The notes under the pieces are model-generated. The model was not told the DNA's origin. It searched no databases and saw only the letters and a list, made by a program, of their open reading frames with translations. 64,000 bases of DNA from Sporosarcina sp. FSL K6-2383. GTDB lineage: Bacteria > Bacillota > Bacilli > Bacillales_A > Planococcaceae. Below are positions 9,075-48,429 of this stretch, piece by piece. Made by a program: the position numbers and the translations under genes. Positions within the stretch are counted from its first letter, which is position 1, and every line of letters begins with the position of its first letter. The DNA lies in NCBI RefSeq assembly GCF_038618305.1, contig NZ_CP152017.1, forward strand, positions 1,899,501-1,963,500. The letters are read 5' to 3'.

Positions 9075-9895
9075 ATAAACGGAAGAAAAACACGATGAAA
9101 TTGATTTCTACGAATATAGCAATTTACGTCATTCTAATTCTCTTCATCTTGCCGTTTCTTTGGATGATTTTGGCTTCATTTAAAACCCAGCAACAGATTT
9201 TGGATACATCCAATCTCTTCGGTTTTACGCCAAACTTTGATAACTATATAAGCGTATTTACTAAATATGAGTTTATGGATTTCATCGTTAACTCGTTTCT
9301 TATAGCAGTGGCATCCACCTTTTTAGGTCTTTTACTTGGATTACCGGCCGCTTATGCCATTGCAAAATATAAACAAAACGGACTGGGTTTGTTGATTTTA
9401 ATTGCTCGAATTGTTCCAGGAATTTCGTTCTTGATTCCTTGGTTTATCATTTTTTCAAGGCTAGAACTCATCGATACATATACAGCTTTGACGCTTAGTC
9501 ATACGCTCGTAACGATGCCATTCATCATTTGGGTAATGATTCCTTTTTTCGAAAGTATGCCGGGGGAATTGGAAGAATCAGCGAGAATCGACGGTTGTAC
9601 GACTACGGGTGCCTTTCTTCGAGTAATTTTACCCATTTCTGGTCCTGGAATAATCACATCCTCTATTCTAGCCTTTATTTTTTCGTGGAACAATTTTATG
9701 TTTTCGCTTATTCTTGCGGGAGAAAAGACCAAAACCCTGCCAATCGCGGTATTTAATTTCCTTTCCTATTCCGACATTAACTGGGGAGGTTTAATGGCTG
9801 CATCTGTGATCATCACATTGCCTGTGCTCGTCATAGCATTAATCATGCAGCGCTTCATTATCGCAGGTTTGACCGGTGGGGCAGTCAAAGGGTAA
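9071..9895 (+). CDS. Sugar ABC transporter permease (MalG-type)
   Basis: The 274-residue second permease has six membrane segments and an EAA loop in the form LEESARIDGCTTTGAFLRVI. It ends in FIIAGLTGGAVKG, the usual MalG-family C-terminus. It overlaps the preceding gene in an ATGA junction. No ATPase gene follows, so the complex presumably uses a shared ATPase such as MsmX encoded elsewhere. Confidence 0.93.
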   Translation: MNKRKKNTMKLISTNIAIYVILILFILPFLWMILASFKTQQQILDTSNLFGFTPNFDNYISVFTKYEFMDFIVNSFLIAVASTFLGLLLGLPAAYAIAKYKQNGLGLLILIARIVPGISFLIPWFIIFSRLELIDTYTALTLSHTLVTMPFIIWVMIPFFESMPGELEESARIDGCTTTGAFLRVILPISGPGIITSSILAFIFSWNNFMFSLILAGEKTKTLPIAVFNFLSYSDINWGGLMAASVIITLPVLVIALIMQRFIIAGLTGGAVKG

Positions 9896-42234: not shown

Positions 42235-42254
42235 AATTGAAAGGGGTGGGGGAA

Positions 42255-42578
42255 ATGGCTACTCGGCTGGAGTTACGTGGGCAAATTTTGAGCGAGTTAA
42301 AAAATATTATTGATCAAACTTTGTGCAATGAAGATGTGAAAGTATACTTGTTTGGTTCATGGGCGAGAAATGAAGAAAAGCAAAGCTCGGATATTGATAT
42401 AGCTGTGGAATCCCGTCATCAGCTTTCCCCTTCAAAGTGGTTGGAGTTACATGATCGGATTGAAGAATCCATTATTCCATACAATGTAGATATTGTTAAT
42501 CTTGCAGATGCAAGTTCGGCTTTAATTCAAAATGTCAAAAGGGAGGGAGTCATTTGGAAAGACTACAAGAACGAATAG
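42255..42578 (+). CDS. mntA: MNT-type nucleotidyltransferase antitoxin (MntA-like)
   Basis: This 107-residue minimal nucleotidyltransferase has VYLFGSWARNEEKQSSDIDI at about residues 30-49, with the G-S and D-x-D catalytic pattern, and VDIVNLADAS with a third acidic residue. In MntA-HepT systems it adds AMP to the HEPN toxin and so inactivates it. GGTGGGGG precedes the ATG at 42255; the frame opens at 42237 but the later start fits better. It overlaps the HEPN gene by 25 bases. All active-site residues are intact. Confidence 0.85.
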   Translation: MATRLELRGQILSELKNIIDQTLCNEDVKVYLFGSWARNEEKQSSDIDIAVESRHQLSPSKWLELHDRIEESIIPYNVDIVNLADASSALIQNVKREGVIWKDYKNE

Positions 42579-42946
42579 TATCTGCCAAAAAAGCATTAGC
42601 TTCCTTACAGAAACTTGTTGTGATTGAACATCCGGACGATGTAGAACGAGATGCGCTAATTCAACGATTTGAATTCACATTTGAGGCATCTTGGAAAGCG
42701 GCCAAACAATATTTGTATGATATGGAGGGCATAGATATTGGCTCACCAAAAGGCGTCATTCGAAGCTGTCGGGAAATAACGCTATTTGATGATGAAGAAA
42801 CGATTCTTGCATTGTAGATGGTAAACGATAGGAATCTAACTGTCCGTACATATAACGAAGAAGTAGCGATTAAAATCCAAATGAATATCAAAACGTATTT
42901 TCCGTTATTATCGAATTGGATTTTGCGAATAGAAAAAAGAATATAG
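42554..42946 (+). pseudogene. HEPN-domain toxin, interrupted (HepT/HI0074-like)
   Basis: The frame starts at TTG behind AAAAGGGAGGG and reads FEFTFEASWKAAKQYLYDME, the usual HI0074/HepT pattern. It meets a TAG at codon 88 (42815-42817). The same frame then continues VNDRNLTVRTYNEEVAIKIQ to a stop at 42944, which is the family's C-terminal part. The RNase motif R-x4-6-H is expected as RNLTxHTYNE; here the His is Arg (R98). Both defects could be single transitions. The toxin is probably dead, unless the TAG is read through. Confidence 0.8.
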
Positions 42947-43714: not shown

Positions 43715-43768
43715 ATATCTACATTGAATCCATTTAAAATAAAACAATAAGTTTTGAAATCTGAACAA

Positions 43769-43896
43769 GGTTGATTTCCACTTCAGTCGGTCGCTTTCCG
43801 CGGGCTTGGCTTCAGCCGCTTCCCTCGCTGTGCTCAGTCCAGGGTCTTCAGCTCAAGATTTTCCCACTGGAGTCGCCGCCTTCCCCTACAATCAAC
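43769..43896. repeat. 128-bp dispersed element, copy 1
   Basis: It starts GGTTGATTTCC and ends ACAATCAAC, so its ends are inverted repeats (GTTGATT/AATCAAC). The inside has GCTTTCCGCGGGC, GGCTTCAGCCGCTTCCCTCG and GTCCAGGGTCTTCAGCTC. A second 128-bp copy lies inverted at 48174-48301. It encodes no protein. It is GC-richer than its surroundings. I recall similar intergenic repeats in Bacillaceae/Planococcaceae genomes. Confidence 0.85.
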
Positions 43897-44157
43897 GAGA
43901 TTAGAATATTATACCCCTGGAAGTTAATTGAGTAAACGAGCAACCATTCGATTTTTCAGTAAGATAGATGATAACGAAAGTGACCTGCAGTAATAAAACA
44001 AATGAATGTTGTGGTAGAATAGAACTACGAAACTTTCCGAAGGTTTTAAGTATAAAAATGTTTGTATAGATTTCAAAAACCGAAGTACTTGATGAATTAA
44101 ATTTTATAGAAGTGACAAAATTTCTATGAAGATAATAAAGTTAGGGGATTGAGTCTA

Positions 44158-47100
44158 TTGAAGAAATTCACAGCCAATTATTGCAAGTCAAATTCAAATT
44201 TTATTATTACGAATTTACCTGAGTATCCCAACAGTGGTGCTTATACAAACCTTATACGAATTGTACAAAATTTATTGACACGTGGCAATCCAACTATTGC
44301 CTCTTCTTATATTCGTAAAGAGCTACTACTTAATCGAAATTATCTTGATACACTTGCTGAAGTTATTTTTTTGTCAAATGAAGATCTTAATTGGTCACAA
44401 ACAATAAAGGGAGATATCAGTCGTGCAGATTATCCCGCCGATGAGCTTTATAGTGATTTATCGGAAATACTAAAAAGTGTTGGATTTATTAAGAACTTAA
44501 CGATTGCAGAATATAAAGTTCAAGACATTTTGCCGGAAGTAAGCGATGCATTCCATGAACAACAAGTTGATTTTTACATCCCATTGCTTAAAACAGTCAT
44601 TGAAGTAGATGGGAGTGGACACCAAGATATTGCTCAAAAAGAGTTAGATAATAAGCGTGATAAATTATTTGAACGAAATGGCATTGCGGTTATTCGAATT
44701 AATACTGATGATATTCGTAACAAAAATTATGAACCTTTTAAAAAGGCTTTTCGTAAGGTGTATATAAAAAATAAAAAAATCATTAATCACTATGGGAGTG
44801 GTTTGGCAACACCACATTCACAGATTGAAACACAAATTCTACTTACCTCAATTGCCCGTATTCAAGTTTTAATACTAGAATTATTGGATCGAGGAGTTAT
44901 TTCATTTACCAACCGTGTATGGAGGTTTAATATACTTGCAAAAGGTGCTGAACGGTATTTGGAAATAGCATTAAAAGATTTAGAAAATTGGTTTGATAAT
45001 GTGGCTGCACTCTTAAATATTCAAATTTCGTTACCTAAAGTTCATATCACCATTTTTGAAAGGGAAGAAGATTTTCCCTTAGATCAGAAGCACATCAATA
45101 TAGACTTTAACCTATTCAAACGATGGGACGAGACAATAAACAAAGAGAATGTCTATACGATTAGAACGGATTTTGATGATAATGCCAATTACTATAGAGT
45201 AAAAACAAATGAGCCTGTCACATATGAGATAGGGAAGGACTCACATCCTGTTCAATTAGAGTTTATCTTGGAAAATCTATTTGGATTTTCAGAATTTCGT
45301 GATGGCCAAAAAGAAATAATCGTGAACTCTCTCAACGGAGAGGACACTGTTGGACTATTGCCTACGGGTGGAGGGAAATCGCTAACATATCAAATTTGTA
45401 CACTATTACAACCCGCTATTAGTTTCGTAGTTGCGCCAATTAAATCCCTGATGTTGGATCAAATACGAAATATGAAAACGAAGCATCATATTACTCACGC
45501 CACCTATATTAATAGTGATTTGAGGGTAGAAGAATCAAGTAGGGCACTACATGATTTCGGTGCAGGTAAGTACTTATTTATTATTATCTCTCCTGAACGT
45601 TTTCAAATACAGAAATTCCGTAATGAATTGTCACTCATCAATCGTACAAAAGCAATTGCCTTAGCTACAATTGATGAAGTTCATTGTCTATCTGAATGGG
45701 GTCATGATTTTAGAACCTCTTATTTGATATTGGCGGATACAATACGCCGTTTTGCACCATCTGCTCGCTTTTTGGCATTGACAGCAACTGCATCTTCCAA
45801 AGTATTGAAAGATATTATGACAGAATTAAAAATTGAATCGCATAACGTAAAAACAATATCAGACTTTACTCGTAAAGAATTAACTTTTGATATAAAGAAT
45901 GTTGCAAAGGCAAAGAAATCGCAAGAGCTATTGGAATTAGTAGGTGTTTCAAATCAAGTAGAAAGTACTGTTGAAGGGCCAACTCTTGTATTCACTTCAG
46001 TAATTAATGGGAGTAGTGGTTGCTTCGAATTAAGCAATTTGATTAGTAAAAATACTGGTCTTTCGACGAATTTTTACTCAGGAGGAAAACCTAAAAAATT
46101 TGAGTCTAATAACTTTAATAAGCATAAAGAACAGATTCAGGAATTATTTATGGATAATAAAATAGATGTACTTGTTGCGACAAAAGCTTTCGGAATGGGC
46201 GTTGATAAAAGCAATATTCGACGAACGATTCACTATGGAATTCCGAGTTCATTGGAGTCTTTTTATCAAGAGGCAGGTAGAGCTGGGCGGGACAAAAAAC
46301 CATCTGAATGCTTTATTTTATATAGTCCTGATATATTAGATGATCAGAAAATAGAAGATATATTTGGTACTGAAACAGATTTAAATAAACTAGAAAAATA
46401 TCAGAAAGAAATGTCGGGAGATTTAAATACTTCGTTGTTTTTCTTAAAGAATTCCTTGATGGATATTCAAGTTGAAGTTGATGAGCTTTTTGATTTTTTT
46501 GTTAATTACCTTTTGGATGTAAATCAATCGATTGACATTCCTTATTTTGATGAATTTGATTTAGGGAAGAAAGAGCGTTTTATTTATCGTTTAGCACTTA
46601 TTGGGGTAGTAGAGGATTGGACTATTGATTGGAATAAGAAAAGAATTGAAGTAGAAATGACAGAGTGGACAGAGCAGTCAGTTATTAAGACTCTGGAGCG
46701 TCATATTCAAAAATACGAGTATAATTTCACATTTGAAATGAAAGAATCTAAGGAGGACGTTTTTAATAAAACAATTGAATATTTCTATGGAAGTGAAGAG
46801 CCGTTTTTGAAAAGAATTTTATATGTACTTTTAAAATGGTATAACGATAATGTTAGTTATTCGCGAAAACGTTCTTTACTTTTAATGAAACAGTACGCAG
46901 ATGAATTTACTGATAGTGCTGCATTGCAACAAAAAATTGAAACATATTTTAAGAGAAATGATGATGTCTACTTTTTAGAGAAAATAGTAGCAAGTGAGAG
47001 TAATCTTGAAAAATGGTTCGAAATATTTTTTATTGAAGAAGAGGGAAAAAAACTACAGCCAAGGCCAATTGCTTCATTTAAAAATTTATCTATTACATGT

Positions 47101-47478
47101 AGTCGTTTCTTAGAGGATAATAATCATGACCCAGCATTAAATTTAATATCAGGTATGCTGGAATTACAACAAGGTCGCTTTGAAACTATAGATGGGAGGA
47201 AACGGATGGCTTCTGCCATTCGGGATATTGTAAAAATGGATATGGTGAAAAGAAGGAAAATACTCATATCTATTTTGCATACATTTAATTCGTATTATGA
47301 CAATGAAAAGCGAGATCAATTGAGTGACGTGCTGATTTCAAACGGATTTGAAGCGATGAATGATTTAAAGGAAATTCACGCAGTCCTTGAAGACCCGATT
47401 AGCTATCGTCACATGATACAAACACTTCATACGAATGTACAGAATCAAAAAGTAGGAGGGTACCCATGGGAGATTTAG
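44158..47478 (+). CDS. RecQ-like DNA helicase with N-terminal PD-(D/E)XK nuclease domain
   Basis: The 1106-residue protein has, around residues 135-200, VDFYIP then IEVDGSGHQDIAQKELDNKR and GIAVIRI. This is a Vsr/DUF559-type nuclease core with D138, E149, D151 and H155. A RecQ helicase core follows from about 370: FSEFRDGQKEII, Walker A PTGGGKS (402-408), DEVHCLSEWGHDFR (506-519) with the RecQ aromatic loop, ALTATASS, and QEAGRAGRD (704-712). About 390 residues at the end match nothing I know; RQC and HRDC domains are not evident. I chose the TTG at 44158, nine bases past GGGGA. The next gene overlaps its end. Confidence 0.88.
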   Translation: MKKFTANYCKSNSNFIITNLPEYPNSGAYTNLIRIVQNLLTRGNPTIASSYIRKELLLNRNYLDTLAEVIFLSNEDLNWSQTIKGDISRADYPADELYSDLSEILKSVGFIKNLTIAEYKVQDILPEVSDAFHEQQVDFYIPLLKTVIEVDGSGHQDIAQKELDNKRDKLFERNGIAVIRINTDDIRNKNYEPFKKAFRKVYIKNKKIINHYGSGLATPHSQIETQILLTSIARIQVLILELLDRGVISFTNRVWRFNILAKGAERYLEIALKDLENWFDNVAALLNIQISLPKVHITIFEREEDFPLDQKHINIDFNLFKRWDETINKENVYTIRTDFDDNANYYRVKTNEPVTYEIGKDSHPVQLEFILENLFGFSEFRDGQKEIIVNSLNGEDTVGLLPTGGGKSLTYQICTLLQPAISFVVAPIKSLMLDQIRNMKTKHHITHATYINSDLRVEESSRALHDFGAGKYLFIIISPERFQIQKFRNELSLINRTKAIALATIDEVHCLSEWGHDFRTSYLILADTIRRFAPSARFLALTATASSKVLKDIMTELKIESHNVKTISDFTRKELTFDIKNVAKAKKSQELLELVGVSNQVESTVEGPTLVFTSVINGSSGCFELSNLISKNTGLSTNFYSGGKPKKFESNNFNKHKEQIQELFMDNKIDVLVATKAFGMGVDKSNIRRTIHYGIPSSLESFYQEAGRAGRDKKPSECFILYSPDILDDQKIEDIFGTETDLNKLEKYQKEMSGDLNTSLFFLKNSLMDIQVEVDELFDFFVNYLLDVNQSIDIPYFDEFDLGKKERFIYRLALIGVVEDWTIDWNKKRIEVEMTEWTEQSVIKTLERHIQKYEYNFTFEMKESKEDVFNKTIEYFYGSEEPFLKRILYVLLKWYNDNVSYSRKRSLLLMKQYADEFTDSAALQQKIETYFKRNDDVYFLEKIVASESNLEKWFEIFFIEEEGKKLQPRPIASFKNLSITCSRFLEDNNHDPALNLISGMLELQQGRFETIDGRKRMASAIRDIVKMDMVKRRKILISILHTFNSYYDNEKRDQLSDVLISNGFEAMNDLKEIHAVLEDPISYRHMIQTLHTNVQNQKVGGYPWEI

Positions 47479-47978
47479 ATCAGATAGAACTACTTGAAGA
47501 ATATATTGAAGACTTTGGAAAAGAATTAAAAAGCATTAAGAAGGCGTCCGAATACTTGGAATTGATTGAACGATTCCAAGATGAAATCACAAGAACGACC
47601 GATATTATGGATCAATCGAAAGACAATATGGTTGCACATCAAGAACTTGCAACGACAAAATTATCACTTTACCAATCAATTCTACAAGGAATTGAACACA
47701 AACAAAAGTCCTTAGAAGAATTACAAAAAAATACATTGGATGATCTTTCGGGCTTTGATCAAAAATATGAAAAATACATGAATGAATCAAATAAGTCAAT
47801 TAAAGAATTATTTAGCAATGTCAATGAGAATAGAACTATGATTGAAACATTATCAAAAGAACAAATGGACCATCGGGGATTTTTGTTCAAGAAGTTATAT
47901 ATGATAGTAGGAGGATTTCTTGGTCTTAACATGGCTTTGGGTGTAGTAATTTTATTTATTTTGCTAAATGGAAAATAA
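47466..47978 (+). CDS. Coiled-coil protein with C-terminal membrane anchor
   Basis: The 170-residue protein is mostly helical and charged (about 1-140), with heptad-like stretches such as EYIEDFGKELKSIKKASEYL and KSLEELQKNTLDDLSGFDQK. It ends in one membrane helix (KLYMIVGGFLGLNMALGVVI, about 144-168), so it is probably tail-anchored with its body in the cytoplasm. GTAGGAGGG lies just before the ATG, which overlaps the end of the helicase gene by 13 bases; the two are surely one operon. No family recognised. Confidence 0.8.
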   Translation: MGDLDQIELLEEYIEDFGKELKSIKKASEYLELIERFQDEITRTTDIMDQSKDNMVAHQELATTKLSLYQSILQGIEHKQKSLEELQKNTLDDLSGFDQKYEKYMNESNKSIKELFSNVNENRTMIETLSKEQMDHRGFLFKKLYMIVGGFLGLNMALGVVILFILLNGK

Positions 47979-48429
47979 GTGATGTTAAAGTGGGCGGAGT
48001 GAAATTCAAATCGCATTTTAGTTATATTAAGGAATCTTTAACCTTTTATTTTTCTGTTGAATATAAGGTAGCTGTTTACTTAAAACATTTTCATAATTAC
48101 CTATTCCAATTAAAAAGACACATATTTGTATGAATACTAATTTATTTGTTAATAAATATAAAATTCTACTTTTGTTGATTGAAGTGCAAGACGGCGACTC
48201 CAGCGGGAATAGCGCGAGCTGAAGACCCTGGACTAAGCATAGCGAGGGAAGCGGCTGAAGCCGTGCCCGCGGAAAGCGTCCGTCTGGAGCGGAAATCAAC
48301 CTAGTTCGGATTTTAAGGTTAATTGTTCTATTATAAAACTGAATCGCTTATGTAAAAATACAGGAGTGCATTCGTCCCGTTTGGACATACTACAGCGTGA
48401 GTTGAAATGTCTAGTTGGAGGTGAAGCAC
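47979..48429. other. Intergenic region containing repeat copy 2
   Basis: It contains AT-rich sequence without a convincing gene, then the 128-bp element at 48174-48301. GGAGG at 48418-48422 serves the small gene at 48430. Confidence 0.5.
48174..48301. repeat. 128-bp dispersed element, copy 2 (inverted)
   Basis: It is the reverse-complement counterpart of 43769-43896, with the same length and the same terminal GTTGATT and AATCAACC. On this strand it reads GGCGACTCCAGCGGGA, GAGCTGAAGACCCTGGACT and GCCCGCGGAAAGCG. The two copies enclose the helicase/coiled-coil operon and nothing else. Confidence 0.85.

Follow-up and report, generated by a model that had tools for sequence, protein, structure and literature searches.

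What purpose is served by a nuclease-bearing RecQ-like helicase whose gene overlaps that of a helical protein with a membrane-spanning tail, the two being set by themselves in an inserted segment between oppositely oriented repeats? This question is raised by a 64,000-nucleotide stretch of the genome of Sporosarcina sp. FSL K6-2383 (NZ_CP152017.1, 1,899,501-1,963,500; hereafter the window, in whose positions all coordinates are given). The conservation of the nuclease and motor residues, the membrane tail of the partner and the genes found in the vicinity of the pair together suggest that its products degrade incoming DNA at the membrane. We see a somewhat better than even chance that the pair constitutes a defence system of two components, as yet uncharacterised, which is directed against incoming DNA, i.e., phages or plasmids, and resides on an insertion flanked by repeats resembling miniature inverted-repeat transposable elements (MITEs). 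An earlier note on this DNA had read the layout as defence-like, and this reading is supported now that the three observations named there as capable of overturning it (rare adjacency elsewhere, a helicase conserved as a core gene, assignment to a known system) have been checked; both the defence role and the membrane tethering of the pair are what we infer.

An inserted nuclease-helicase gene and its tail-anchored partner

In two genomes of the same genus the flanks of the segment carrying the pair (Table 1) are contiguous, and the segment has therefore been inserted in the window genome or its lineage. In G002, window positions 43715 and 48354 align to the adjacent positions 9510 and 9511 (identity 87% in the left flank and 82-86% in the right), while in G053 they align to 3156 and 3155 (85-87% in the left flank). 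Four further members of the genus (G020, G037, G038 and G054) likewise lack the segment at this site, where some 50 to 250 bp that do not align stand in its place. The claim that the pair is enclosed with nothing else holds, both because the helicase and its partner are the sole plus-strand open reading frames (ORFs) of at least 80 amino acids (aa) between the repeats and because the segment is missing from the two relatives. The gene pair has a G+C content of 33% as against 37-39% in its surroundings, with a similar drop in four of five other loci.

The first gene has two candidate TTG start codons, of which the second, giving a protein of 1106 aa, is preferred because of the AGGGGA ahead of it and of the N-terminus seen in the family (MKKFTANYC...). 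Pfam recognises in its product a DUF559 domain (PF04480; 29.0 bits, cut-off 20.6), which we take to be a nuclease of the PD-(D/E)XK/Vsr type, followed by DEAD (64.8 bits) and Helicase_C (57.1 bits). The protein scores 277.4 bits with the NCBIfam RecQ subfamily model TIGR00614, above the cut-off of 219.8, as befits a RecQ-type superfamily 2 core, and 295 bits with the classical bacterial RecQ equivalog TIGR01389, below the cut-off of 640.2. Its structure model (predicted local distance difference test score, pLDDT, 88.5; predicted template modelling score, pTM, 0.86) matches BLM, RECQL5 and WRN in a list that covers essentially the RecQ core. Beside these likenesses to the RecQ family stand differences: an N-terminal nuclease-like region, an extra helical C-terminus, and no cysteine cluster in the window sequence directly after the core. 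The secondary structure of the model suggests a winged-helix-like character for the first portion of the C-terminal part.

Across alignment A2, which holds 49 of the 58 helicase homologues, the nuclease residues E118, D138, E149, D151 and H155, as expected of DUF559, and the helicase residues K407, D506, E507 and R708 are invariant; the latter four are unchanged over all 58. The same residues are conserved in all 29 loci that were checked for them. In nine further distant members D138, E149, D151 and H155 are conserved throughout, as are the four helicase residues, with E118 replaced by glutamine in eight of the nine. On account of this conservation the nuclease is probably active.

The second gene encodes a protein that AlphaFold2 renders as a single helix over residues 2-168 (pLDDT 90.3, pTM 0.35), and its stalk shows a hydrophobic period of 3.52 residues and zero proline. 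A sequence search with it returned six proteins, the query included, and Foldseek gave zero matches at E<=10. The coiled-coil label rests on this model for the window partner and on composition for its counterparts elsewhere, with periodicity in addition for 28 of them. Pfam and NCBIfam, the 13-bp overlap of the genes, the single-helix model and the hydropathy segment beginning at residue 144 confirm the earlier description of a nuclease-RecQ fusion overlapping a gene for a coiled-coil protein with one C-terminal membrane helix.

Table 1. Features of the inserted segment (window positions)
Feature	Positions	Strand	Basis
Insertion of 4,638 bp carrying the gene pair	43716-48353	.	Window BLAST against relatives
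Left MITE-like dispersed repeat (approximate ends)	43726-43989	+	Inverted-repeat arms; alignment with genome copies
Ribosome-binding-site-like AGGGGA ahead of TTG 44158	44143-44148	+	Sequence
Helicase ORF, TTG start	44149-47478	+	ORF list; alternative start 44149
Nuclease-RecQ helicase, 1106 aa, TTG start	44158-47478	+	ORF, Pfam/NCBIfam, family start, structure model
DUF559 nuclease region, about residues 95-205	44440-44772	+	Pfam DUF559; invariant residues
RecQ helicase core, about residues 355-735	45220-46362	+	
C-terminal part, winged-helix-like (suggested), then mostly helical	46363-47475	+	DSSP of model; sequence
Coiled-coil-like tail-anchored partner, 170 aa, 13-bp overlap with helicase	47466-47978	+	ORF; model
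Partner C-terminal membrane helix, residues 144-162	47895-47951	+	Kyte-Doolittle segment
Right MITE-like repeat, opposite orientation (approximate ends)	48081-48344	-	Inverted-repeat arms; alignment with genome copies

Recurrence of the pair and its variant forms

Homologous loci were drawn from genome searches with the helicase as sole query, from a scan of GTDB genomes by nuclease-region alignment, from plasmid records (four of the ten matching records being opened) and from one viral contig. The genome searches, run at E<=1e-90 for genus, family and class and at E<=1e-80 for the phylum, limits which distant members may escape, and counting the own genome in each case, found 2 carriers among 68 genomes of the genus, 5 among 261 of the family, 2 among 398 sampled from the class and 4 among 398 sampled from the phylum. 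These figures bear out that the helicase is not a conserved core gene, and the housekeeping RecQ genes are distinct from it. As a side observation, two genus members have a third RecQ-like match (G058:C73:126231-127259, in a 670-aa frame, and G008:C5:193833-194831, in a 1101-aa frame).

The GTDB scan retained 80 loci among at least 193 relatives; those without an ORF of at least 300 aa matching the family profile at E<=1e-20 (L060-L106 except L072, and L108-L110) were left uncounted. Also set aside were L032, L038 and L072, in which a contig ends within the helicase, L034, whose helicase ORF stops at 268 aa and where a partner was not seen, and L141 and L142, which are near copies of L140 and L041. 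In all 39 evaluable loci that remain, the window included and several phyla represented, the helicase gene is followed on the same strand by an adjacent gene for a helical, charged protein, at a spacing that ranges from an overlap of up to 26 bp to a gap of at most 102 bp. The stalks of all 39 partners contain 0-1.9% proline and 24-40% charged residues, and a C-terminal membrane helix is present in 33 of 38, L046 being omitted from this count as its partner is cut by a contig end.

The eight other carriers that came from the helicase-only searches (G053, G084, G137, G220, G392, G620, G749 and G785) all have, on the same strand, a partner with one C-terminal membrane helix, overlapping by 13 bp in five, by 4 bp in two and separated by a 20-bp gap in one. 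As a chance background, 37 of 1069 ORFs of at least 100 aa in the fetched loci, the partners among them, are 90-240 aa long with a single C-terminal membrane segment. Adjacency elsewhere, whose rarity would have counted against the earlier note, is upheld at every evaluable locus, including those to which the helicase alone had led. Further, the distances between helicases and between partners are correlated as expected of genes inherited together (Mantel r = 0.90 over 29 of the 39 pairs, with 0 of 5000 permutations as high). The 39 loci are not all independent, given the 97.5% identity of L041 and L140 and the closeness of several Bacteroidota entries to one another.

The pair also occurs in more elaborate forms. 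A longer helicase protein, of 1558 aa, is encoded in Advenella and on plasmids of E. coli, Klebsiella and Raoultella. In the E. coli copy, which was scanned, its N-terminal part contains a HAD domain and a weak match to ShosT (E=1.5e-7); a DprA-like gene matching ShosA (E=6.8e-68) overlaps the start of the helicase gene. The resulting three-gene form (L140, L141, L142 and L041) hence comprises a ShosA-like DprA, a HAD-ShosT-like-DUF559-RecQ fusion and a tail-anchored coil. Of 5426 E. coli genomes 7 have it, four on a plasmid and three on the chromosome, two of them with an internal insertion sequence (IS) element. The Advenella and Raoultella/Klebsiella copies share 99.6% DNA identity over 6.1 kb; the form is carried on plasmids and has moved recently. 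A blastn comparison of the Cedecea copy with E. coli genomes gave, among the matches listed (20 of 2746), just a 3% match to the housekeeping recQ. In three genomes of the phylum of the window (L198, L199 and L200) a topoisomerase-type zinc ribbon takes the N-terminal place instead, with the same kind of partner. The opened enterobacterial plasmid copies are annotated as a RecQ family helicase and a hypothetical protein, and others as a HAD-IA family hydrolase.

Neighbouring genes, known systems and the competing explanations

At E<=1e-15, PADLOC models of 94 families match the 58 neighbour genes of six loci (the own locus and five relatives). Six control regions, chosen roughly half a contig from the loci in these genomes and comprising 89 genes, give matches to 15 families. 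ORFs running off an end were omitted; these are counts of redundant models and not of genes, and 25 of the 94 families are listed. Among the relatives, G084 has BREX genes (PglZ, BrxL) on one side and Shango genes (SngB, SngC) on the other, G220 has DISARM DrmA and DrmB nearby, and G392 has a UvrD-like helicase neighbour that matches the RTasHel and GajB models. Elsewhere, in Chryseobacterium the Zorya genes ZorA, ZorB and ZorC come after the pair as a separate neighbour, in Anaerobium a Type III restriction enzyme lies upstream, and in a Bacteroidales genome a TmtA protein lies downstream. The 131 neighbours of 16 further loci matched 124 PADLOC families, a count without a control of its own. 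Of the expectation that the pair would recur in defence islands with a patchy distribution, the pairing, the patchiness and the presence of defence genes at several loci have stood; location among known defence genes is recurrent in this small sample and does not extend to every locus.

These distributions bear on the possibility that the pair is a module for DNA repair or plasmid maintenance which lies in variable islands by chance. RecQ, DprA and PD-(D/E)XK proteins serve in repair and recombination, and the copy on plasmid pLAO18 lies near genes for a primase, a DnaB-like helicase and a ligase. Since the pair is missing from nearly all relatives searched and defence-system neighbours recur across unrelated hosts, we regard this explanation as improbable.

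Comparison with known systems begins with Dpd, as the PADLOC DpdF model PDLC02868 aligns with residues 80-1028 of the window helicase at E=1.3e-100. That the helicase should be DpdF of this 7-deazapurine DNA system is nonetheless very hard to credit and already contradicted: the NCBIfam DpdF model NF041063 gives 173.9 bits against a cut-off of 550, DpdA (NF041059) is found in none of six genomes with the pair, and two genes stand alone in the insertion. The low score and the absence of DpdA exclude membership of Dpd, and the earlier view that no known system accounts for the pair survives the PADLOC label.

Zorya combines a membrane component that has a long helical cytoplasmic part with a helicase/nuclease, and the pair likewise sets a membrane component with a long helical part alongside such an enzyme. 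ZorA and ZorB are reported to form a 5:2 complex (PMC11890865). Unlike Zorya, the pair has no MotA/MotB-type motor, its partner being a single helix with one membrane segment, and the PADLOC ZorA2 match (14.7 bits) falls on the coil only. This anatomy, which lacks MotAB-like ZorA/ZorB partners, excludes membership of Zorya.

A third comparison concerns PsyrTA/RqlHI and ShosTA, which share with the pair a helicase of RecQ type (RqlH) or, as in the plasmid form with its ShosA-like gene, a DprA-like partner. In the portion of PMC4670107 available, RqlH consists of an N-terminal helicase and a C-terminal phosphoribosyltransferase (PRTase), its genotoxic activity is restrained by RqlI, and a coil partner is not mentioned. 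By contrast, the window helicase has no PRTase domain in a Pfam search at E<=1, its PADLOC PsyrT match is restricted to residues 369-742, and the DprA-like gene present in the plasmid and Advenella forms is absent from the window insertion. Nevertheless, one could conceive of a toxin-antitoxin-like arrangement in which a genotoxic nuclease-helicase is sequestered at the membrane by the coil until invasion, much as RqlI restrains RqlH; the overlap of the helicase and partner genes, and the ShosA-like antitoxin homologue and weak ShosT match of the plasmid form, would agree with it. We think it unlikely, as the partner is a single predicted helix, unlike the DprA-like RqlI, and the two-gene form has no further gene in the inserted segment.

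A description of the pair was not found in the open-access papers searched, which take in few subscription papers and preprints, nor in the available portions of PMC4670107, PMC9122126, PMC5512222, PMC13092281 and PMC13316683. In our judgement the pair is a system without a name that belongs to a familiar broad class, the nuclease-helicase defence modules, and is new in its membrane-tether design.

In favour of reading the pair as a defence system against incoming DNA count the constant pairing, the conserved catalytic-type residues, the correlated distances, the rarity of carriers, the defence genes close to several loci, the plasmid-borne and recently moved copies and the link to a ShosA-like gene in the plasmid form. 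Such a system could operate as follows. The N-terminal end of the partner would bind the nuclease-helicase, its C-terminal membrane helix would keep the complex on the inner side of the cytoplasmic membrane, the site of entry of foreign DNA, and the long helix between them would space the helicase from the membrane. With DNA entry as the presumed trigger and foreign DNA as the presumed target, the RecQ motor would load on single-stranded or end-bearing DNA and unwind it, and the fused DUF559 nuclease would cut the unwound DNA.

Several observations weigh against this defence reading, in addition to the redundancy of the PADLOC models pointed out above. RecQ and DprA proteins also act in repair and DNA uptake. 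The window's own defence neighbours are weak or none: a nucleotidyltransferase-like gene nearby matches PDC-S09, and a large helicase matches MkoA, a model that also recognises a control region. G137 has a weak TmtA match alone, and the neighbours of G053 are genes that on inspection look transposase-like and a PD-(D/E)XK protein without a PADLOC match. PADLOC likewise gave no match for the scanned neighbours L115:14075, L119:3521 and L117:2096, nor for three of the ten neighbours (L045:6096, L050:15715 and L039:8384) in the Chryseobacterium, Anaerobium and Bacteroidales scan. A full-length homologue with a coil gene, overlapping by 4 bp, lies on an IMG/VR contig of 206 kb classed as viral (L120), the one full-length homologue among the 20 loci of the viral-contig search; phage records yielded zero matches. 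Among the 58 homologues P0061 is a true nuclease exception, with four of the five residues changed or missing, including three of the four core ones, the other failures being P0044, a partial record from which the region is absent, and P0065, with E118 changed to Q. Finally, five of the 38 partners (L052, L055, L057, L058 and L120) have no recognisable membrane helix, and membrane anchoring is therefore not universal. In four of these five the C-terminus is a short tail, basic or hydrophobic (RGLFGRR-like, KKGxxF-like), which, to speculate, might mediate peripheral membrane binding.

The same helix-less partners bear on an alternative in which the system acts by abortive infection, with the nuclease-helicase sensing phage DNA and the tail-anchored coil being a killer that damages the membrane once released or oligomerised. 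Small membrane proteins are effectors in several defence systems, and the pairing is invariant across the loci examined, as such a division of labour would have it. Yet a killer without a membrane helix in five cases is difficult to accommodate, the strong conservation of the nuclease residues points to DNA as the target, and the membrane segment looks like a plain hydrophobic helix in which a conserved polar face was not seen; we doubt this alternative.

Returning to the reading of a DNA-degrading defence system at the membrane, a broader version of it is conceivable, although we place it somewhat short of an even chance. The pair would represent an ancient, multi-phylum immune family in which a nuclease-helicase is tethered by a single long tail-anchored helix, with the add-ons (HAD plus ShosT-like, zinc ribbon) and the optional DprA/ShosA as interchangeable sensors or second effectors, making it an equivalent of Zorya that lacks the motor and catches DNA on its way in. 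If this is true, a nuclease-helicase immune system of several phyla has so far gone unnamed because its partner is a fast-diverging helix barely found by sequence search and its helicase passes for RecQ or DpdF. The pair would then furnish a simple test case for cells posting DNA-degrading machines at the membrane against incoming DNA, and the annotation of the copies now called RecQ/hypothetical or HAD-IA family hydrolase would be corrected.

The flanking MITE-like repeats

The two repeats around the pair had been described as 128-bp elements in opposite orientation. The orientation stands; the length does not, as the arms measure 181 bp at 83% identity (43733-43913 and 48157-48337) and are parts of an element of about 265 bp that belongs to a dispersed family. 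In well-kept copies the two ends of the element are inverted repeats of each other, as seen in an alignment of 15 copies (two from the window; 12 fetched stretches supplied the other 13). The repeat has 23 BLAST matches in its own genome, where in some cases a single copy gives two of them. All 13 same-genus genomes searched, the own included, contain it, as does one of eight others; in G002 a copy lies about 1.3 kb from the empty site. At L180 (G000:C1:1515000-1527500) an inverted pair of the repeat, 8.5 kb apart, surrounds chromosomal genes of ordinary appearance, which were judged by eye to be recG-, sdaAB- and plsX-like. Hence, bracketing alone is no proof of insertion, which the empty sites do prove. 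The idea that the repeats specifically bracket a defence module was half dropped in view of their dispersal throughout the genus, the L180 pair and the lack of the repeat in all five homologous loci of related genomes.

The simplest reading of the insertion is that it may be a cassette moved between two MITE ends, comparable to the mobile insertion cassettes of Bacillus cereus; alternatively, the two repeats could have been inserted stepwise around an incoming segment. A target-site duplication was not discernible in the AT-rich junctions, and a literature search on MITE cassettes yielded nothing of use. Rfam gave 0 matches in the window, and a promoter/terminator scan performed no better than on shuffles. 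To the left of the insertion, a nucleotidyltransferase-like gene at 42237-42817, which matches PADLOC PDC-S09, and a short overlapping ORF after it, without a PADLOC match, resemble by eye an MNT/HEPN toxin-antitoxin pair; G002 is collinear across this region.

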